Source of the DNA: Bacteroidia bacterium
GTDB taxonomy: Bacteria; Bacteroidota; Bacteroidia; Flavobacteriales; Flavobacteriaceae
Direction: 5' to 3'
DNA length: 45,765 bases
Assembly (NCBI GenBank): GCA_030429835.1
Contig: JAUIGC010000007.1
Coordinates: 1 to 45,765, forward strand
In this document: positions 1,166 to 11,715 of the stretch, piece after piece
Layout: every line of letters begins with the position of its first letter
How positions within the stretch are numbered: position 1 is the first letter of the stretch
Program-made: the position numbers and the translations under genes
Notes under the pieces: generated by a model
Seen by the model: the letters and a program-made list of their open reading frames with translations, nothing else
Database searches by the model: none
What the model was told of the DNA's origin: nothing

Positions 1166-1374
1166 TCTTCGAGGATAACTATAACGTAAATAGTCTCATA
1201 TTATTGTTTTTGCATCGGTTTTAACACTAATTGAATTTCTTTTTATCTGATTCTTAGTGTAATTTCGCGGCTTTGAAATTAAACGTTTTTATAGGTTCAT
1301 TGAACGATATTAATCTTTAAAGACTGTTTAATGTTATTTTTTTGTTGGTTGAATTTACTTACAACTTTTATGCT

Positions 1375-4300
1375 ATGAATAATTATTACGATTTTAATTC
1401 TAAAAAGCTTAAGAAATACCTTTATATATCATCTGTTACTGCTTTTGCCGCGGCTATTATGAGTTTCGGTCCGATGTTCTTCGGTCCGGGGATGGGGGAT
1501 CCTGAGCCTTTCAGCGTAGCGGTGGATACCGGATTTCCTGCTGACGGTGTCAGCACCCCTGCCTACGAGGAGGCCTTCCCTAACCTGAACTTCGACTCGC
1601 CCATAACCTTCGATCCGGTCCCCAACGACAATTCCAGGATTGTTGTGGCCCAATTGAACGGTAGGGTTTATTGGATTGGCTCCGACAACGGTACTACGAC
1701 AAAAACTGAGATCGTGAACTGGTCCGCGGAGGTGGGCGACCGCAACGAGGGGGCGGTCTGGGACGGCGGCTTTTTGGGCCTTGCGATCCATCCGGAGTTC
1801 GGTACGGACCCTGCGAAGAACTATATGTTCGCGTACTACTCCACGAACGCCTCTAACAACAACCTGGGCACCCCTCAGGACTTCAGGTGCAGTGTCGAGA
1901 ATTTCAGCGGCAACTATCTGGTGTTGGCACGTTTCCGGGTAGATCCGGTCACCATGTCCTATGTTCCCAACAGCCGCCAGACGATGATCCGTCGCGAGCT
2001 CTACAACACCACGCACCGTGGTGGAGGGATGACCTTCGGCCCCGACGGATACCTGTATATCACCACGGGGGACCAGGCGACCTATGCCAATGCGCAGGAC
2101 ATCGTTAACAACCTTGACGGCGGTGTGCTCCGCCTCGATGTGGACATGGACCTGGCGACCAGCCATGCGCCAAGGCGCTTCCTTCAGGATCCAGGGGTGG
2201 GCAACACCCATCCGGACAGCGAGGGCCAGGAAATGTCCGGGGCATATTACTATATTCCCAACGACAACCCTTTCAACGACCCCGCGGGGAGCGTTTTCGA
2301 GGAGTACTATACCATCGGTCATAGAAGCCCTCACCGGTTGACGATGGACTCGGCGACGGGCGACCTTTATATCGGGGAGGTCGGAGAGACCAAGCACGAG
2401 GAGGTGAATATTCTCAGGAACAGTCCCGCGACCGCCGGGAACAACTATGGCTGGCCTTTCAAGGAAGGGAATGCGGACTTCACGCCGCCCACACAGTCAG
2501 GTACGCCGTGTACCGCAAGTCCTTATCCCGATGCGGGAACGGTGGTCTATACGGCCCCTTTGACGGATTTCGTAAGGGACGATGCCTGGTCGATAATCGG
2601 GGGTTATGTGTACAACGGCTCCATAGCCCAGTACCAGGGGCGCTATATCGCCGGGGATTATGTTACCAACAAGTTGTTCGCGATAAACACCCAGAGCGGG
2701 GCCAAGGAAAATATCGGTGTGGGCCCGGGGGAGATGATCTCCTTCGGCCAGGACAGTAGCGGGGAGCTGTACATACTAAGACTGGGTAACAACGGCAATA
2801 GTGGCATCTACAGGTTAAAGGAGTCCATCGATATCAATGCGGCCCCTACGCTGCTTTCGGACACCGGGGTGTTCGTTACGGATATTGACGGGGATTTCTC
2901 GGATATCGGCCAGCTCAGCGTCAACGATGGTTTCATACCCTATGATATGATCCAGCCTTTCTGGTCGGACGGAGCGCTGAAGAGCCGCTGGATGGCCATC
3001 CCCAACAACGGGACGCACGATACTCCTGCGGAGCAGATCCAATGGTCGGAGGACGGCGATTGGCAGTTCCCCGTGGGCTCTGTGCTGGTAAAACATTTCG
3101 ATTACCCGGACGAAAGTAGGCCCAACCAGACCAGGAAGATAGAGACCCGTTTTTCGATAAAGGGAACGGACGGCAACTTTTACTTCCTCACCTATAAATG
3201 GAACACTTCGGAGACGGACGCGACCTTGGTGGACATGTCCACAGGGGAAACGGTAAGTATAGATATAACAAGAGGCGGTAACCAAGAAACCATAGAATGG
3301 CTGTACCCATCCAATTCACAGTGTTTGACCTGTCACAACCCTGCCTTGGGGGGTACCTTGGGGCCCAGGACGCGCAACCTTAACAGCGACTATGACTATA
3401 GTGCCAAGGGAGGTACGGTAGGGAACCAGTTGGTGACCTTGAGCCATTTGGGCATACTTGACCAGAACATCACTGATACCGATACCCCGGGCTACCAAAC
3501 GCACAAGGCGATCGATGACCTGAACGCCACGTTGGACGAGCGAGCTCGCTCGTACCTGGACAACAACTGCGCCTATTGTCACCAGCCGGCCACGGGCAAC
3601 CGGGCGGATTTTGACCTAAGGCTCTTCAATACGCTTTCCCAGACGGGTCTTTTGACGGCCGGGATCAACCAATCGATTCCCGCGATGGCCCCAGACCAGG
3701 AAATCGTATTTCCCGGGAATGCGGCCAAGTCGCAACTGTACCACAGGGCGAACAGTCTTGAGCCGGGCGTAAAGATGCCACCTTTGGCCAAGGGTATCGT
3801 GGACACGGAGGGCGTTGCCTTGCTTGAGGCATGGATCAACCAGCTGCAGCCTCCCGCACCGGCCCCTCCGTTAGGGGACTATAGGATCGTGAACCGTGCC
3901 TCGGGGCAGACCTTGCAGGTTCCCGATGCCAGCACGGCGGATGCGGCCAATGTTGCCCAAGGGGGGTATGCGGGTCTGGCGCACCAGAACTTTACCTTGG
4001 AGGATGCCGCAATTCCTGGTTATCACCAGTTGAAGGCCGTACATAGTGACAAATATCTGGACGTCGCCTCCGCTTCAATGGCCGACGGTGCGAATATCTG
4101 GCAGTATACAGGTAATGGTACCGATGCGCAGCTTTGGGAAATAGTGGATGCGGGCGACGATACCTACAATATAATAAGCAAGCTCAGCGGCTATTACCTG
4201 GGTACCGAGCCCAACGGCAACGTGGTGGTGGCCGCCGATAACGGAAGCGATATCTTCAGGTGGGAGTTTCAACCTACAGGTTCGCCTTTGGATTTAGGAA

Positions 4301-7300
4301 TAACAGTTGCCGAAGAACCTTTGGTAACTTCGGAAGATGGAACATCTGATGAAATCAGTATTGTTTTGGATGCTCCCCCAACAACGGACGTAGTTCTATT
4401 GTTGAACGGAATCCTAAATGCAGATGAATTTTCACTATCCGAAACTCAATTAACCTTTACTTCTGCAAATTGGGATACTCCTCAATTGGTAACGATAGCC
4501 GGTCTTGATGATACAGAAGTTGATGGTGTACAATATTACACGGTCGAAATAAGTGTTGTTGATGCACAGAGCGATCCTTTATACGCTGGTTACTCGGCAA
4601 CAATAGAAGGGTATAATTCTGACGATGATGGTGGTGGTGTGGGTCCACCGGCCTTAGGTATCTATAGAATTGTAAACCTTGCCAGTGGGCAAACCCTTCA
4701 AGTACCCAATGCGAGTACGGCCAATTTGGCAAATATTGCAGAAGGTGCATATGAGGGTCTAGATCATCAGCATCTTGAATTGGAGTATGCAGGTAATAAC
4801 CTGTATAAATTAAAGTTTGTGCACAGTGGCAGTTACTTGGACGTTGCCCAGGGATCCGCTGCGCCAGGAACAAATGTTTTACAATATGAGGATAATGGCG
4901 GTGATACGGATGCCCAGCTATGGGCAATTGAGGATGCCGGCAATGGAACATTCCATTTGGTGAGTCAGGCCGGTGGTCATTATCTTGGTACGGAACCTAA
5001 TGGTAATGTATATGTTCAAGTGGATGATGATAGTGATACATTTCGTTGGCAGTTTATGAATCCAAGCGGACCTTTGGGTAATGGACTTACTGTGACCCCA
5101 GACGTAATCGCTGTTTCGGAAGATGGCCAAACGGATATAATTAGCGTTGTACTAAATGCTGCTCCTGGGGAAGACGTGGTCTTAACTGTCGTTGGACTTT
5201 CCAATACAGATGAATTTAATCTGTCCCTGGCCGAGTTGACATTCAATAACGCCAATTGGGACGTTCCTCAGGAGGTCATGGTATCCGGTGTCGATGATAC
5301 AGAAATTGATGGGGTACAATATTTTCAAATAGAAATAGCAGTGGATCCCGCGAGAAGTGATGCAAATTATAACGGATTTTCTGTGGTAATCGATGGATAC
5401 AATTCAGACGATGATGGTGGTGGAGTAGGGGCTCCGGTAACTGGAATCTATAGAGTAATCAATAGGGCAAGTGGGGAAACCCTGCAAGTTCCTGACGCAA
5501 GTCTTTTAGATCAAGCCAATATAGCTGAAGGCACCTATTCCAATACAGACAATCAGCATTTTGAATTGGAGTATGCGGGTAACAATCTATACTCTTTAAG
5601 AGCTATCCATAGTGATAAATATCTGGATGTTGCTGCCGCTTCCACTGCAGTTGATACCAATATTTGGCAATATGAAGGTAACGGTTCCGATGCGCAATTA
5701 TGGCAGATAGTAGATGCTGGAGACGGCACTTTTTATTTGATCAGTGAGTTAAGTGGTTATTATCTAGGAACAGAACCCGATGGAAATGTTATTGTGAAGG
5801 CTAATGACGGTAGCGATACCATCAGGTGGGAGTTTACCTTTACAGGATACCCCCCAACTGCCGTTGCAACCTCGGATATTACTGAAGGGGAAGCACCTTT
5901 GGATGTTTCCTTTACTGGGGATGCTTCTACGGACGACATTGCGGTTACGGAGTACCTATGGGACTTTGGTGATGGTAGTACTTCCACTGAGGCGAACCCT
6001 ATACATACCTTTGCGGCTGCAGGTAGCTATGATGTGGTGTTAACGGTGACTGATGGGGGAGGATTGACAGATACGGCTACGGCAATTACCATAACGGTAA
6101 TTGCTCCTAACGGTGCTCCAACCGCGGTAGCAACATCTGATGTCAGTGAAGGAGAGGTACCTTTGGAAGTTTCTTTCACTGGAGATGGATCTACAGACGA
6201 TATCGGTATTACAAGTTATCTTTGGGACTTTGGGGATGGTAGTACTTCTACAGAGGTGAATCCAATGCATACATTCACCGCAGTTAATATCTATGAGGTC
6301 AGCCTAGCGGTAACCGATGCAGGAGGGCTAATGGATACTGCTACACTTACAATTACGGTCAATCCTGTAAACGAAGCTCCAACAGCAGTGGCCAGTTCGG
6401 ATATTAACGAGGGCGAAGCGCCTTTGGATGTTTCTTTCACCGGGGATAGTTCTACGGATGATGTTGCTATAACGGAGTATCTATGGGACTTTGGAGATGG
6501 TAGTACTTCTACGGAAGCCAATCCTATTCATACCTTTACTGATGCAGGAAGTTATGACGTTTTATTAACTGTTACCGATGCAGGAGGGTTGACCGATACG
6601 GCTTTGATTACCATTACAGTATATGCGGCAAACGGTGTTCCAACTGCGATTGCAACTTCGAATATTAGCGAGGGAGGTGCCCCATTGGAGGTTTCCTTCA
6701 TGGGAGATGCATCTACCGATGATTCTGGGATTACGGAATATCTATGGGATTTTGGGGATGGTGGTACTTCCACGGAAGCGAACCCAGTACATACCTTTAC
6801 TACTTTAGGTAGCTATGATGTGGTCCTGACGGTAACCGATGCAGGAGGGTTGACGGATACGGCAATGCTTACTATTATAGTATCTGCAGTTAACGGCGCT
6901 CCGACTGCGGTGGCCAGTTCGGACGTGACAGAGGGCGAAGCTCCTTTGGAAGTTTCTTTTACAGGTGATGCTTCTACCGATGATACAGGAATTTTGGAAT
7001 ACCTGTGGGATTTTGGTGATGGTGAAACCTCTACAGATGCTAACCCGGTACATACCTTCATGGAAGCGAACAGCTATGAAGTAACCTTGACTGTTACCGA
7101 TGGACAGGGACTTAGCGATAGCACCAGTATAACGATTGAGGTTTTGGATAATCAAACCAATTCACAAGATGTTGAAATCGTCATTGCGCCAAACCCGGCC
7201 TCACAATATGCCTATATCTATTTCAACAACGTATCAGTAGATAGAAATGAGATTATTGGCTTTACGATCCATGATACAGGTGGCCGATTGATCGGTCAAT

Positions 7301-7437
7301 ACATGGAGTCTGAGGTTTACAGTGAACAAGGTCTTTATACCATTCCAATGTTTGGACTTCGGGATGAATTTTATGCCATCACGATATCTTTTACAGAAGG
7401 GCCGCCAATTAGTAAAAGGGTAATCGTTAGAAACTAA
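1375..7437 (+). CDS. Secreted PQQ sugar dehydrogenase / diheme cytochrome c / ricin lectin / PKD fusion (copy 1)
   Basis: The protein is 2020 residues from the ATG at 1375; an upstream in-frame TTG at 1342 is less likely because the ATG gives a normal signal peptide (KKLKKYLYISSVTAFAAAIM). Domains in order: glucose/sorbosone dehydrogenase-like beta-propeller, about 70-480, with GGGMTFGPDGYLYITTGD and HRSPHRLTMD; a region resembling the SO2930/HNE_0200 diheme cytochrome family, about 495-825, with heme sites CLTCH (650-654) and CAYCH (732-736); ricin-type lectin domains at about 834-964, 1095-1227 and 1357-1487, alternating with Calx-beta-like segments; five PKD domains, about 1493-1925, each with WDFGDG; and a T9SS sorting tail from about 1935 (IAPNPAS, ending KRVIVRN). 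I infer an exported, surface-held enzyme that oxidises sugars and passes electrons to its own hemes. Bases 1451-4270 repeat exactly in the next gene and are G+C-rich, while the rest is A+T-rich. Confidence 0.88.
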   Translation: MNNYYDFNSKKLKKYLYISSVTAFAAAIMSFGPMFFGPGMGDPEPFSVAVDTGFPADGVSTPAYEEAFPNLNFDSPITFDPVPNDNSRIVVAQLNGRVYWIGSDNGTTTKTEIVNWSAEVGDRNEGAVWDGGFLGLAIHPEFGTDPAKNYMFAYYSTNASNNNLGTPQDFRCSVENFSGNYLVLARFRVDPVTMSYVPNSRQTMIRRELYNTTHRGGGMTFGPDGYLYITTGDQATYANAQDIVNNLDGGVLRLDVDMDLATSHAPRRFLQDPGVGNTHPDSEGQEMSGAYYYIPNDNPFNDPAGSVFEEYYTIGHRSPHRLTMDSATGDLYIGEVGETKHEEVNILRNSPATAGNNYGWPFKEGNADFTPPTQSGTPCTASPYPDAGTVVYTAPLTDFVRDDAWSIIGGYVYNGSIAQYQGRYIAGDYVTNKLFAINTQSGAKENIGVGPGEMISFGQDSSGELYILRLGNNGNSGIYRLKESIDINAAPTLLSDTGVFVTDIDGDFSDIGQLSVNDGFIPYDMIQPFWSDGALKSRWMAIPNNGTHDTPAEQIQWSEDGDWQFPVGSVLVKHFDYPDESRPNQTRKIETRFSIKGTDGNFYFLTYKWNTSETDATLVDMSTGETVSIDITRGGNQETIEWLYPSNSQCLTCHNPALGGTLGPRTRNLNSDYDYSAKGGTVGNQLVTLSHLGILDQNITDTDTPGYQTHKAIDDLNATLDERARSYLDNNCAYCHQPATGNRADFDLRLFNTLSQTGLLTAGINQSIPAMAPDQEIVFPGNAAKSQLYHRANSLEPGVKMPPLAKGIVDTEGVALLEAWINQLQPPAPAPPLGDYRIVNRASGQTLQVPDASTADAANVAQGGYAGLAHQNFTLEDAAIPGYHQLKAVHSDKYLDVASASMADGANIWQYTGNGTDAQLWEIVDAGDDTYNIISKLSGYYLGTEPNGNVVVAADNGSDIFRWEFQPTGSPLDLGITVAEEPLVTSEDGTSDEISIVLDAPPTTDVVLLLNGILNADEFSLSETQLTFTSANWDTPQLVTIAGLDDTEVDGVQYYTVEISVVDAQSDPLYAGYSATIEGYNSDDDGGGVGPPALGIYRIVNLASGQTLQVPNASTANLANIAEGAYEGLDHQHLELEYAGNNLYKLKFVHSGSYLDVAQGSAAPGTNVLQYEDNGGDTDAQLWAIEDAGNGTFHLVSQAGGHYLGTEPNGNVYVQVDDDSDTFRWQFMNPSGPLGNGLTVTPDVIAVSEDGQTDIISVVLNAAPGEDVVLTVVGLSNTDEFNLSLAELTFNNANWDVPQEVMVSGVDDTEIDGVQYFQIEIAVDPARSDANYNGFSVVIDGYNSDDDGGGVGAPVTGIYRVINRASGETLQVPDASLLDQANIAEGTYSNTDNQHFELEYAGNNLYSLRAIHSDKYLDVAAASTAVDTNIWQYEGNGSDAQLWQIVDAGDGTFYLISELSGYYLGTEPDGNVIVKANDGSDTIRWEFTFTGYPPTAVATSDITEGEAPLDVSFTGDASTDDIAVTEYLWDFGDGSTSTEANPIHTFAAAGSYDVVLTVTDGGGLTDTATAITITVIAPNGAPTAVATSDVSEGEVPLEVSFTGDGSTDDIGITSYLWDFGDGSTSTEVNPMHTFTAVNIYEVSLAVTDAGGLMDTATLTITVNPVNEAPTAVASSDINEGEAPLDVSFTGDSSTDDVAITEYLWDFGDGSTSTEANPIHTFTDAGSYDVLLTVTDAGGLTDTALITITVYAANGVPTAIATSNISEGGAPLEVSFMGDASTDDSGITEYLWDFGDGGTSTEANPVHTFTTLGSYDVVLTVTDAGGLTDTAMLTIIVSAVNGAPTAVASSDVTEGEAPLEVSFTGDASTDDTGILEYLWDFGDGETSTDANPVHTFMEANSYEVTLTVTDGQGLSDSTSITIEVLDNQTNSQDVEIVIAPNPASQYAYIYFNNVSVDRNEIIGFTIHDTGGRLIGQYMESEVYSEQGLYTIPMFGLRDEFYAITISFTEGPPISKRVIVRN
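1451..4270 (+). repeat. Long direct repeat, copy A (about 2820 bp)
   Basis: This segment recurs at 7715-10534 with a constant offset of 6264 bases and no indel. All stretches I compared by eye are identical, and the overlapping frames on both strands also translate identically, so synonymous sites match too. It covers the end of the signal peptide, the dehydrogenase, both heme sites and the first ricin domain. It stops exactly after the WEF that closes the lectin. Its base composition is G+C-rich (40 of 60 bases at 1741-1800, against 23 of 60 at 4441-4500). Confidence 0.93.
5854..7146 (+). repeat. Five tandem PKD-domain repeats
   Basis: Units begin at 5854, 6118, 6379, 6640 and 6901, so the period is 264 and then 261 bases. 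Each encodes an 87-88 residue PKD domain with a PTAVA-like start and a core close to EYLWDFGDG. They are similar but clearly diverged at DNA level, unlike the perfect 2.8 kb repeat upstream. They probably form a stalk or spacer between the lectin part and the sorting tail. Confidence 0.9.
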
Positions 7438-7450
7438 TTATTATTTTTAT

Positions 7451-7487
7451 AAAAAAAAGGGACAACATTCGTGTTGTCCCTTTTTTT
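7451..7487. terminator. Strong, symmetric rho-independent terminator
   Basis: GGGACAACA (7459-7467) pairs perfectly with TGTTGTCCC (7472-7480) around a TTCG tetraloop. There is an A-run on the left and a seven-T run on the right, so it can work in both directions. It lies 13 bases after the stop codon of the first fusion gene and separates it from the second, so the two copies are probably separate transcription units. Confidence 0.92.
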
Positions 7488-7523
7488 GTTGGAGTCGAGA
7501 CCATGTTTGTACTTAATGGGCGA

Positions 7524-7586
7524 TTCAAAATTTTGAAAGTTATATTGCTATTTATCGGATAAAATTATACTTATATCGATTTATCC
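7524..7586. promoter_or_regulatory. Palindromes upstream of the second fusion gene
   Basis: A perfect 14-base palindrome, TTCAAAATTTTGAA, is at 7524-7537. An inverted repeat, GGATAAA (7557-7563) with TTTATCC (7580-7586), follows. Neither is followed by a T-run. They lie 75-140 bases upstream of the ATG at 7663, in the only non-coding DNA between the two fusion genes, and are candidate operators. No promoter box is clear. Confidence 0.3.
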
Positions 7587-7662
7587 AGTTCAATATTTAT
7601 ATAAAAATTATTTAAATTAATTTTAACATTCTCCCCCAAATTTCATATTTAAGATATTCAAA

Positions 7663-10600
7663 ATGAAACACTTCAGGGGTAGGTTTTTATTGCTTTTTAT
7701 TACTGCTTTTGCTTCGGCTATTATGAGTTTCGGTCCGATGTTCTTCGGTCCGGGGATGGGGGATCCTGAGCCTTTCAGCGTAGCGGTGGATACCGGATTT
7801 CCTGCTGACGGTGTCAGCACCCCTGCCTACGAGGAGGCCTTCCCTAACCTGAACTTCGACTCGCCCATAACCTTCGATCCGGTCCCCAACGACAATTCCA
7901 GGATTGTTGTGGCCCAATTGAACGGTAGGGTTTATTGGATTGGCTCCGACAACGGTACTACGACAAAAACTGAGATCGTGAACTGGTCCGCGGAGGTGGG
8001 CGACCGCAACGAGGGGGCGGTCTGGGACGGCGGCTTTTTGGGCCTTGCGATCCATCCGGAGTTCGGTACGGACCCTGCGAAGAACTATATGTTCGCGTAC
8101 TACTCCACGAACGCCTCTAACAACAACCTGGGCACCCCTCAGGACTTCAGGTGCAGTGTCGAGAATTTCAGCGGCAACTATCTGGTGTTGGCACGTTTCC
8201 GGGTAGATCCGGTCACCATGTCCTATGTTCCCAACAGCCGCCAGACGATGATCCGTCGCGAGCTCTACAACACCACGCACCGTGGTGGAGGGATGACCTT
8301 CGGCCCCGACGGATACCTGTATATCACCACGGGGGACCAGGCGACCTATGCCAATGCGCAGGACATCGTTAACAACCTTGACGGCGGTGTGCTCCGCCTC
8401 GATGTGGACATGGACCTGGCGACCAGCCATGCGCCAAGGCGCTTCCTTCAGGATCCAGGGGTGGGCAACACCCATCCGGACAGCGAGGGCCAGGAAATGT
8501 CCGGGGCATATTACTATATTCCCAACGACAACCCTTTCAACGACCCCGCGGGGAGCGTTTTCGAGGAGTACTATACCATCGGTCATAGAAGCCCTCACCG
8601 GTTGACGATGGACTCGGCGACGGGCGACCTTTATATCGGGGAGGTCGGAGAGACCAAGCACGAGGAGGTGAATATTCTCAGGAACAGTCCCGCGACCGCC
8701 GGGAACAACTATGGCTGGCCTTTCAAGGAAGGGAATGCGGACTTCACGCCGCCCACACAGTCAGGTACGCCGTGTACCGCAAGTCCTTATCCCGATGCGG
8801 GAACGGTGGTCTATACGGCCCCTTTGACGGATTTCGTAAGGGACGATGCCTGGTCGATAATCGGGGGTTATGTGTACAACGGCTCCATAGCCCAGTACCA
8901 GGGGCGCTATATCGCCGGGGATTATGTTACCAACAAGTTGTTCGCGATAAACACCCAGAGCGGGGCCAAGGAAAATATCGGTGTGGGCCCGGGGGAGATG
9001 ATCTCCTTCGGCCAGGACAGTAGCGGGGAGCTGTACATACTAAGACTGGGTAACAACGGCAATAGTGGCATCTACAGGTTAAAGGAGTCCATCGATATCA
9101 ATGCGGCCCCTACGCTGCTTTCGGACACCGGGGTGTTCGTTACGGATATTGACGGGGATTTCTCGGATATCGGCCAGCTCAGCGTCAACGATGGTTTCAT
9201 ACCCTATGATATGATCCAGCCTTTCTGGTCGGACGGAGCGCTGAAGAGCCGCTGGATGGCCATCCCCAACAACGGGACGCACGATACTCCTGCGGAGCAG
9301 ATCCAATGGTCGGAGGACGGCGATTGGCAGTTCCCCGTGGGCTCTGTGCTGGTAAAACATTTCGATTACCCGGACGAAAGTAGGCCCAACCAGACCAGGA
9401 AGATAGAGACCCGTTTTTCGATAAAGGGAACGGACGGCAACTTTTACTTCCTCACCTATAAATGGAACACTTCGGAGACGGACGCGACCTTGGTGGACAT
9501 GTCCACAGGGGAAACGGTAAGTATAGATATAACAAGAGGCGGTAACCAAGAAACCATAGAATGGCTGTACCCATCCAATTCACAGTGTTTGACCTGTCAC
9601 AACCCTGCCTTGGGGGGTACCTTGGGGCCCAGGACGCGCAACCTTAACAGCGACTATGACTATAGTGCCAAGGGAGGTACGGTAGGGAACCAGTTGGTGA
9701 CCTTGAGCCATTTGGGCATACTTGACCAGAACATCACTGATACCGATACCCCGGGCTACCAAACGCACAAGGCGATCGATGACCTGAACGCCACGTTGGA
9801 CGAGCGAGCTCGCTCGTACCTGGACAACAACTGCGCCTATTGTCACCAGCCGGCCACGGGCAACCGGGCGGATTTTGACCTAAGGCTCTTCAATACGCTT
9901 TCCCAGACGGGTCTTTTGACGGCCGGGATCAACCAATCGATTCCCGCGATGGCCCCAGACCAGGAAATCGTATTTCCCGGGAATGCGGCCAAGTCGCAAC
10001 TGTACCACAGGGCGAACAGTCTTGAGCCGGGCGTAAAGATGCCACCTTTGGCCAAGGGTATCGTGGACACGGAGGGCGTTGCCTTGCTTGAGGCATGGAT
10101 CAACCAGCTGCAGCCTCCCGCACCGGCCCCTCCGTTAGGGGACTATAGGATCGTGAACCGTGCCTCGGGGCAGACCTTGCAGGTTCCCGATGCCAGCACG
10201 GCGGATGCGGCCAATGTTGCCCAAGGGGGGTATGCGGGTCTGGCGCACCAGAACTTTACCTTGGAGGATGCCGCAATTCCTGGTTATCACCAGTTGAAGG
10301 CCGTACATAGTGACAAATATCTGGACGTCGCCTCCGCTTCAATGGCCGACGGTGCGAATATCTGGCAGTATACAGGTAATGGTACCGATGCGCAGCTTTG
10401 GGAAATAGTGGATGCGGGCGACGATACCTACAATATAATAAGCAAGCTCAGCGGCTATTACCTGGGTACCGAGCCCAACGGCAACGTGGTGGTGGCCGCC
10501 GATAACGGAAGCGATATCTTCAGGTGGGAGTTTCTATCAAGTAGTGGGAATAATGATTTGGTCCTTTCGCCCATATCGGACGTGTCGGGCATGGTTGGGG

Positions 10601-11715
10601 ATTCTGTGGACTTTACGGTCACGGCCACTGGCGGCGATGAATCGGAGGCTTTGGTCTATGAACTTACGGGCGCCCCTGCGGGAGTCGATATCGACGCTTC
10701 GACGGGCCGTGTGACGGGCACGTTGGCGGTCGGTTCGGATACGGGCGGCCCCGGCCTTGACGGTATATATACGGTAACGGTCACGGCCACCAGGGGGACT
10801 TCCCCTGAGGCCACGGCCAGCTTTGTCTGGACGGTATCGGACGTTCCCGTTCCGTCGTCGGTGGTGTATAGGCTCAATGCCGGCGGTCCCTTGGTGGCTT
10901 CCGTAGACGATGGCCCGGACTGGAACGCGGACAACGTATCGGGCCCTAGCACGGGTACGGGCTTCACGGTGAACACGGGTACGGCGAGCACTGCGAACCA
11001 GGGTGTTTCCTATGCGAACCGTCATCCGTCGATACCGGCTTATGTGGACGCTGGGCTTTACGGTGCTCTTTTCGCAAGGGAGCGCTGGGACGCTGGCACG
11101 GCCCCTGAGATGACCTATAGCATCCCGTTATCTGACGGGGATTACGTGGTGAACCTGTACCTGGGTGACCATTACTATGCTACGGACGCCGTGGGGGACC
11201 GGGTGTTCTCGTTAACGTTGGAGGGTGTCACGGTACGTACGGGCCTTGACCTGGTCTCCGAGTTCGGCCACCGCCGTGGCGGGATGCTGAGCTATCCCGT
11301 GACGGTGAGCGGCGGCTCTCTGGAGGTCGGTTTTCTGCACGGAGCTTCGGAGAACCCCTTGATCAACGCGATAGAGGTGCTTGTTGATGGAAATGATTCA
11401 AATATTGTGCAATTACAAAGTAAAATTTTAGTCGATGAAATTAATCATTCCCTTGAAAGTGTTTCTATATCGCCCAACCCTGTTTTTAGAAATGAAAAAA
11501 TAACGGTACAATTTGCTTCATCTGCTGAATCTCTAGCACAAATTTCTATTTATGCTCTGAATGGGGCCCAGGTTTATGATAAATCTTTCATGACTATTAA
11601 GGGCCGCCATAATAGGATAGAGGTCCTACCGGGTAATTTGGATATGGGCATATACTTGGTAAAAATATCTACTTTGGGTAATGAAGTATATAAAAAAATA
11701 GTAGTAAAAAACTAG
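7663..11715 (+). CDS. Secreted PQQ sugar dehydrogenase / diheme cytochrome c / ricin lectin / malectin fusion (copy 2)
   Basis: The protein is 1350 residues from the ATG at 7663, with signal peptide MKHFRGRFLLLFITAFASAI. The first part is the same as in the preceding gene: glucose/sorbosone dehydrogenase-like propeller (about 60-470), diheme cytochrome region with CLTCH (642-646) and CAYCH (724-728), and one ricin-type lectin (about 826-957). After the lectin the sequence is unrelated to copy 1. It has a putative Ig domain (about 960-1062, with LTGAPAGVDIDASTGRVTGT), a malectin-like carbohydrate-binding domain (about 1068-1243, starting VYRLNAGGP), and a T9SS sorting tail (about 1265-1350, SISPNPVF to KKIVVKN). 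I infer surface-exposed, self-wired sugar oxidation with a different substrate-binding tail. The G+C-rich composition runs from about 7715 to 11384, then drops sharply at the sorting tail. It has its own upstream region after a strong terminator. Confidence 0.88.
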   Translation: MKHFRGRFLLLFITAFASAIMSFGPMFFGPGMGDPEPFSVAVDTGFPADGVSTPAYEEAFPNLNFDSPITFDPVPNDNSRIVVAQLNGRVYWIGSDNGTTTKTEIVNWSAEVGDRNEGAVWDGGFLGLAIHPEFGTDPAKNYMFAYYSTNASNNNLGTPQDFRCSVENFSGNYLVLARFRVDPVTMSYVPNSRQTMIRRELYNTTHRGGGMTFGPDGYLYITTGDQATYANAQDIVNNLDGGVLRLDVDMDLATSHAPRRFLQDPGVGNTHPDSEGQEMSGAYYYIPNDNPFNDPAGSVFEEYYTIGHRSPHRLTMDSATGDLYIGEVGETKHEEVNILRNSPATAGNNYGWPFKEGNADFTPPTQSGTPCTASPYPDAGTVVYTAPLTDFVRDDAWSIIGGYVYNGSIAQYQGRYIAGDYVTNKLFAINTQSGAKENIGVGPGEMISFGQDSSGELYILRLGNNGNSGIYRLKESIDINAAPTLLSDTGVFVTDIDGDFSDIGQLSVNDGFIPYDMIQPFWSDGALKSRWMAIPNNGTHDTPAEQIQWSEDGDWQFPVGSVLVKHFDYPDESRPNQTRKIETRFSIKGTDGNFYFLTYKWNTSETDATLVDMSTGETVSIDITRGGNQETIEWLYPSNSQCLTCHNPALGGTLGPRTRNLNSDYDYSAKGGTVGNQLVTLSHLGILDQNITDTDTPGYQTHKAIDDLNATLDERARSYLDNNCAYCHQPATGNRADFDLRLFNTLSQTGLLTAGINQSIPAMAPDQEIVFPGNAAKSQLYHRANSLEPGVKMPPLAKGIVDTEGVALLEAWINQLQPPAPAPPLGDYRIVNRASGQTLQVPDASTADAANVAQGGYAGLAHQNFTLEDAAIPGYHQLKAVHSDKYLDVASASMADGANIWQYTGNGTDAQLWEIVDAGDDTYNIISKLSGYYLGTEPNGNVVVAADNGSDIFRWEFLSSSGNNDLVLSPISDVSGMVGDSVDFTVTATGGDESEALVYELTGAPAGVDIDASTGRVTGTLAVGSDTGGPGLDGIYTVTVTATRGTSPEATASFVWTVSDVPVPSSVVYRLNAGGPLVASVDDGPDWNADNVSGPSTGTGFTVNTGTASTANQGVSYANRHPSIPAYVDAGLYGALFARERWDAGTAPEMTYSIPLSDGDYVVNLYLGDHYYATDAVGDRVFSLTLEGVTVRTGLDLVSEFGHRRGGMLSYPVTVSGGSLEVGFLHGASENPLINAIEVLVDGNDSNIVQLQSKILVDEINHSLESVSISPNPVFRNEKITVQFASSAESLAQISIYALNGAQVYDKSFMTIKGRHNRIEVLPGNLDMGIYLVKISTLGNEVYKKIVVKN
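7715..10534 (+). repeat. Long direct repeat, copy B (about 2820 bp)
   Basis: This is the second copy of 1451-4270. The left boundary is marked by two adjacent base differences (CG against TT at 1449-1450 and 7713-7714), with a further 13 matching bases beyond them. The right boundary falls directly after the codons for WEF. No transposase, terminal inverted repeat or target duplication is visible at either end. Confidence 0.93.

Follow-up and report, generated by a model that had tools for sequence, protein, structure and literature searches.

Probable concerted evolution by gene conversion of an enzyme segment in two neighbouring Maribacter genes, with a possible bias towards G and C

Bacterial gene pairs that evolve in concert, such as tufA and tufB, are recognized by paralogues that are closer within a genome than orthologues between genomes and by conversion that stays within the bounds of the shared sequence (PMC6053082, PMC5485169). 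In these two papers, the terms "GC content" and "biased gene conversion" (PMC6053082) and "gc-bias" and "biased" (PMC5485169) do not occur. Lassalle et al. (2015; PMC4450053) used intragenic recombination to propose GC-biased gene conversion in bacteria, with GC content being higher, above all at third codon positions, in sequences that recombine often. The terms "paralog", "ectopic" and "multigene" do not occur in the main text of that paper. Such a bias in bacteria is disputed, and for Haloferax the direction of conversion is reported not to be governed by GC, an AT bias being cited in the same paper (PMC8223754). In primates, the near-identical, conversion-homogenized arms of X-chromosome palindromes are reported to turn GC-richer (PMC8981503). 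Literature searches confined to CC-licensed PMC papers, and judged by titles and abstract openings, brought up no recognizable report of GC enrichment in homogenized bacterial paralogues or repeats; a paper on a GC-rich PE_PGRS pair exists (PMC1762029), and in one on the ribosomal operons of E. coli (PMC8022953) "gc content" and "gc bias" are absent. Here, a stretch of 45,765 nucleotides (contig JAUIGC010000007.1, in the following the window) is described, in which two adjacent genes, gene 1 and gene 2, carry the same block encoding a predicted sugar dehydrogenase. Unlike in tufA and tufB, homogenization is limited here to the enzyme part of two secreted multidomain proteins that otherwise differ, and the composition of the block differs from that of the rest of gene 1. 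The contrast lies within single genes, whereas Lassalle et al. (2015) compare recombining with non-recombining genes; the palindromes, for their part, are eukaryotic and consist of inverted arms and not of a bacterial gene pair.

The two genes, the block and the unshared parts are the following (GC3, GC content at third codon positions):

1375 to 7437, plus strand: gene 1, coding for a putative secreted protein in which GSDH, a cytochrome c segment and a ricin lectin are followed by two more ricin lectins and five PKD domains.
7663 to 11715, plus strand: gene 2, 1350 amino acids, with the shared block and, after it, He_PIG, malectin and a type IX secretion sorting domain.
1451 to 4270, plus strand: copy 1 of the shared block, comprising the end of the signal peptide, GSDH, a cytochrome c segment and the first ricin lectin; GC3 0.707.
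7715 to 10534, plus strand: copy 2 of the shared block, 2820 of 2820 bases as in copy 1; GC3 0.707.
1436 to 1450, plus strand: leftward extension of the homology within the signal peptide, 15 bp with 2 mismatches against 7700-7714.
4271 to 7434, plus strand: unshared tail of gene 1; GC3 0.343.
10535 to 11712, plus strand: tail of gene 2, with He_PIG (about 10561-10839), malectin (about 10861-11373) and the sorting domain (about 11467-11706); GC3 0.567 overall.

The base-by-base comparison of both copies yielded no mismatch, and the maximal exact match covers exactly 1451-4270 and 7715-10534, both in frame within two long plus-strand open reading frames (ORFs). This confirms the perfect, indel-free match reported by a sequence-only reading of the window. 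The flanks, which that reading had called unrelated, are indeed so: identity drops to 17-39% in 100-bp windows wholly beyond the block, and homology continues only in the short leftward extension. Likewise, the right edge was correctly placed at a domain end, directly after the RWEF that closes the ricin-type lectin domain. The suggestion of a swappable cassette found no support; the edges lie about where the homology between gene 1 and gene 2 ends. The description as one enzyme with two tails, lectin-PKD against malectin, fits the anatomy, but the block already holds the first lectin; what sets the tails apart is two additional lectins and five PKD domains in gene 1 and He_PIG with malectin in gene 2.

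Relatives were searched in 36 genomes of the genus at a match cut-off of E<=1e-150, and 19 of these Maribacter genomes contained a match. The nearest relative, Maribacter flavus KCTC 42508, carries both genes in identical order, and its copies are 99.0% identical across the same 2820-base block. Their 28 differences are confined to the block ends (4 at positions 5-12 and 24 at 2619-2817), with 2606 bp in between lacking any, so that tract limits with unconverted ends are seen in this species. The blocks of the window and of M. flavus, in contrast, are only about 82% identical to each other, with a silent divergence (dS) of about 1.0. No silent difference separates the copies at 635 sites in the window or at 596 sites in the M. 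flavus interior, whereas about 325 of 589 silent sites in the block interior differ between the species. By the rule of three, the silent divergence between copies is below about 0.005 in each species, i.e., about 0.5% of the interspecies value. Paralogues within a genome are therefore closer than orthologues between the species. Flanks are alignable, and order and the 2820-bp limits are shared between the species over about 9.8 kb; the pair thus predates the species split. Since the copies resemble their neighbour and not their orthologue, they very probably evolve in concert by gene conversion between the two genes. In addition, the last 68 block codons of M. flavus show a dS of 0.67 between the copies while the remainder is undiverged, which suggests tracts differing in extent and age. 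The use of the window to polarize these 3'-end differences gave no direction, as its sequence agreed with each of the copies at 8 of the 22 codons and the silent sites were saturated.

The enzyme segments of the family were compared in a protein tree of 38 rows, with a frameshifted gene 1 of one genome (G010) excluded from the trees and from the main GC3 table. All four copies of the window and M. flavus group by genome, within the clade of gene 1. In M. spongiicola, gene 1 is immediately followed by a malectin-tailed gene 2. This gene has an orthologous tail (43-50% identity with the tail of gene 2) but an enzyme segment that forms a deep, long branch; this species appears to retain an unconverted gene 2. 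The gene 2 heads of the window and M. flavus are short and resemble the gene 2 heads of M. spongiicola and of two further genomes (G026 and G027), unlike gene 1 heads. Taken together, the placement in the gene 1 clade, the old gene 2 of M. spongiicola and the preserved head and tail suggest that gene 1 sequence replaced the stretch between the head and the tail of gene 2 before the two species diverged. Two old tandem paralogues would accordingly have their enzyme part held identical by recurrent gene conversion, in which one direct repeat is copied from the other, presumably by RecA-dependent break repair. In the ancestor of both species, gene 1 would have replaced the middle of gene 2, sparing the signal peptide and the malectin tail, and each lineage would have kept homogenizing the block since, reaching the limits of homology or nearly so. 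In G026 and G027 (loci L050 and L051), the enzyme segments of gene 1 and gene 2 also group together (support 95 and 99), with a low GC3 of about 0.2 and a dS within the genomes of 1.55 and 1.68, near saturation; perhaps an older homogenization took place in their ancestor. The gene 2 tail of G026 (L050, 12738-18467) further holds about 720 codons, i.e., twelve 60-codon bins, with a GC3 rounding to 0, presumably simple repetitive sequence.

The sequence-only reading had left the choice between a very recent duplication and ongoing conversion. The conversion alternative is favoured by the M. flavus pair, the interspecies dS and the gene-2-type head and tail, whereas a simple recent duplication is disfavoured by the synteny with M. 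flavus and the old gene 2 of M. spongiicola. Recent duplications that occurred independently in both species and share their end points would also leave the copies closest within each genome. This is extremely improbable, however, as it would have to hit the same limits, order and alignable flanks in both species, and as the heads and tails of gene 2 are of the older gene-2 type and the M. flavus ends keep an older divergence.

The exactness of the identity has further to be judged by the quality of the assembly. The window is one entire contig of a Maribacter metagenome bin (3.56 Mb, 337 contigs, 82.6% complete), and as some of the contigs measure only 1.6 kb, the bin looks like a short-read assembly. 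Short reads handle long exact repeats poorly, and an assembler may resolve a tandem repeat through a simple loop in its graph, so that both copies come out identical. A few real differences between the window copies could thus have been smoothed away, which counts against exact identity. Moreover, searches of the window's own genome for 16S and for a DDE transposase gave no match, and the M. flavus contig also stops inside gene 2, the rest of which is located at the end of another contig. Nevertheless, an assembly artefact, be it a single copy used twice or true differences lost, is very unlikely to explain the pair. M. flavus was assembled separately, has the same two genes and resolves 24 differences in the last 200 bp, and the gene order over both copies plus flanks is common to both species. 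Accordingly, the near-identity of the copies is supported by this second assembly.

Besides its identity, the block features an unusual composition. Its GC3 amounts to 0.707 in the window and 0.682 and 0.694 in M. flavus, compared with 0.343 and 0.335 in the gene 1 tails of the two species; the blocks of nine further gene 1 orthologues, each without a near-identical partner, range from 0.186 to 0.375. In gene 1, silent GC is thus raised in the converting segment both relative to its own tail and relative to unconverted orthologues. At the block edge of gene 1 in the window, GC3 falls from 0.8 to 0.2 across adjacent 20-codon bins, with bins of 0.45-0.8 over the 200 codons before the edge and 0.2-0.55 over the 200 after it. 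Among 134 ORFs sampled from the window's genome (20 stretches, two of which were all N and yielded no ORF), GC3 had a mean of 0.401, a standard deviation of 0.049 and a maximum of 0.494, and for 302 ORFs taken from 400 kb of M. flavus sequence a mean of 0.453, a standard deviation of 0.077 and a maximum of 0.609; none reached 0.65 in either sample, and 1.9% of the 60-codon windows of the M. flavus sample were at 0.65 or above. G and C are both elevated in the block, fourfold sites included, while the first and second codon positions reach the upper end of the orthologue range with only a small change (0.54 versus 0.49-0.53 and 0.445-0.448 versus 0.39-0.45). A possible explanation is that mismatches arising during conversion are resolved to G/C more often than to A/T, which would have brought the block to a GC3 of about 0.7 and left the remainder of gene 1 AT-rich. 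With the gene 1 tail as baseline, the log odds of the bias would be about 1.5 in gene 1. Such a GC-biased resolution is the simplest single account of the border shared by composition and homogenization in gene 1, and its chances of being right are at best slightly better than even. For the broader claim, that GC-biased conversion acts between repeats inside bacterial genomes, with a strength sufficient for a twofold rise of silent GC in a converting segment next to codons of the same gene that stay AT-rich, the balance is about even.

A survey of within-ORF repeats agrees with a general rule of GC-enriched homogenized repeats, short of proof. It comprised 590 non-redundant ORFs from Maribacter, each 400 codons or longer, in which repeats of at least 150 bp were binned by identity and their GC3 was compared with the rest of the ORF; counts were tallied by hand from the rows. 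Repeats at least 80% identical were GC3-richer than the rest in 15 of 17 ORFs, whereas those below 80% were richer in 4 of 18, or 4 of 16 if gene 1 of the window and of M. flavus is left out. Single cases include an M. flavus BNR_4 gene near gene 1 (L048, 4326-7184, minus strand) with four Big_2 domains and near-identical repeats (0.68-0.74 at an identity of at least 90% versus 0.31 in the rest), F5/8-type-C plus Big_2 repeats (0.77 versus 0.37), He_PIG-malectin repeats (0.54 versus 0.24) and PKD repeats (0.42 versus 0.22). A gene of G007 (L216, 15086-18565, minus strand), which gave one weak, sub-threshold Pfam match and stems from the evenly spaced sample, reached 0.71 in its 80-90% identical repeats versus 0.36. 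Two other repeats were uninformative: a tandem whole-gene pair in G001 (GC3 0.412) left no rest for comparison, and a short M. flavus ORF gave 0.481 versus 0.462 in 13 codons. The repeats within the gene 1 tail itself are about 72-79% identical, with a single 31-bp stretch at 94%.

Several observations weigh against a GC bias of conversion. In the survey, two pairs among the 17 ORFs are neighbouring pieces of one locus, and merging them leaves 13 or 14 of 15; most of the 17 derive from loci fetched for the GSDH-lectin block family or for malectin, some of them being orthologues. If only the evenly spaced stretches of four genomes and 30 rpoB loci are regarded, four ORFs with repeats at least 80% identical remain, three of them GC3-richer and one poorer. 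Some of the differences are small; in a gene of G034 the 90-97% identical repeats are poorer (0.206 versus 0.255), in a piece of G010 slightly poorer (0.638 versus 0.656) and in a gene of G006 nearly equal (0.301 versus 0.288). In addition, gene 2 displays no drop at the block edge. Its GC3 stays high through the malectin domain (60-codon bins of 0.58-0.73 in the He_PIG-malectin part, 0.23-0.33 in the sorting domain), and the contrast of block and rest is weaker (0.704 versus 0.559), the malectin module being GC-rich too. This module was found once in its genome, at the 82.6% completeness of the bin, and the likewise GC3-rich F5/8-type-C tail of G031 was found once as well. A bias of conversion would need an extra assumption for the malectin part, e.g., that the module was recently multi-copy, as in M. 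spongiicola. Finally, the 3' block end of gene 2 in M. flavus has remained GC-rich despite escaping recent conversion; that of gene 1 is GC-poorer.

GC-rich modules found only once would also suit an import, in which a GC-rich relative supplied the enzyme block (and the malectin module), with duplication or copying afterwards, the composition being foreign and unrelated to conversion. Sharp composition edges are expected from an import as well, and a tree of the gene 1 tails puts the window and M. flavus away from G031. The block protein tree, however, sets both beside G031 (support 93), and in a tree of rpoB from 30 genomes M. flavus clusters with G030 and G031 (support 92), these rows being flagged for unusual composition. 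As both trees agree, the descent of the block looks vertical. The tail tree, meant to confirm vertical descent, disagreed with the block tree, and long branches meet in it. Moreover, the nine other gene 1 blocks are AT-rich, and the fading of a foreign composition argues in the same direction. The relaxation of the gene 1 tail, determined at third positions of codons for the same residue in both species, is 0.377, i.e., most of the ancestral strong/weak state is lost. At this turnover, and assuming a stationary gene 1 tail and an equal age of block and tail, even a GC3 of 1.0 at the split would have faded to about 0.58. The observed 0.70 and 0.67 exceed this, which rejects a simple fading of a GC-rich import and suggests that the block is pushed continually towards G/C. 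Overall, an import is considered a rather doubtful explanation.

The high GC3 of gene 2 past the block to the malectin end and the GC-rich 3' end of the M. flavus gene 2, which escaped the last conversion, could furthermore reflect selection on synonymous codons or on the RNA of the enzyme part, e.g., due to a high expression of gene 2, with gene 1 receiving the GC-rich version. Nevertheless, six ORFs of the M. flavus ribosomal operons have a GC3 of 0.28-0.42, so translational preference points away from a GC-rich block. G is raised as much as C, also at fourfold sites, and GC3 falls inside the same ORFs, namely at the block edge of gene 1 and at the sorting domain of gene 2. Selection of this kind is therefore improbable. 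GC-biased conversion, at the odds given above, remains the reading followed here.

With regard to the proteins, the enzyme part of the block matches GSDH (glucose/sorbosone dehydrogenase; PF07995) in two stretches, with GSDH matches of 97.8 and 98.9 bits against a curated cut-off of 25. It thereby resembles the GSDH-family sugar dehydrogenases (PDB 2g8s, 2ism and 3a9g), whose matches span only parts of the domain; its activity is predicted, and unlike in that family it is linked with a ricin lectin and a cytochrome c segment. The latter gave weak Pfam matches (E 3e-4 and 2e-4), and its motifs CLTCH and CAYCH were read from the sequence. The ORF of gene 1 (1342..7437, 2031 amino acids) begins with TTG at 1342, but the ATG at 1375 is the likelier start. 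Its second and third lectins have matches at 4645-5055 and 5428-5835 as well. Between the genes, one further feature is located:

7452 to 7487, plus strand: hairpin with a T run 3' of gene 1, stable (z -6.1) and terminator-like.

A scan for consensus terminators listed nothing at this hairpin. Its terminator-like form suggests that gene 2 is probably transcribed separately from gene 1. Downstream, positions 11760-45742 are mostly occupied by a cluster for synthesis and export of a polysaccharide of capsule or O-antigen type, comprising glycosyltransferases, Wzy-like, MurJ-like and Wzz proteins, an export protein and sugar-nucleotide enzymes. Upstream, at 1076-1166 on the minus strand, a 91-nt tRNA-like gene is found, a candidate tRNA-Sec (anticodon tca). 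Counterparts of similar length in the M. flavus, M. spongiicola and G020 loci were typed Val, unknown or Ile, and SelA matches barely above the cut-off were obtained in three of four genomes searched, spanning only 42 of 367 positions.

The locus offers a natural test for a preference of G and C when DNA is copied between bacterial repeats, as the contrast lies within one gene, with a GC3 of 0.71 in the homogenized half and 0.34 in the other, and as partnerless orthologues and a second species serve as controls. If the bias is real, the homogenized repeats across Maribacter genes would constitute a set of natural replicates. With respect to the organism, the locus suggests that a bacterium can hold one secreted enzyme body identical beneath two different sets of binding tails.

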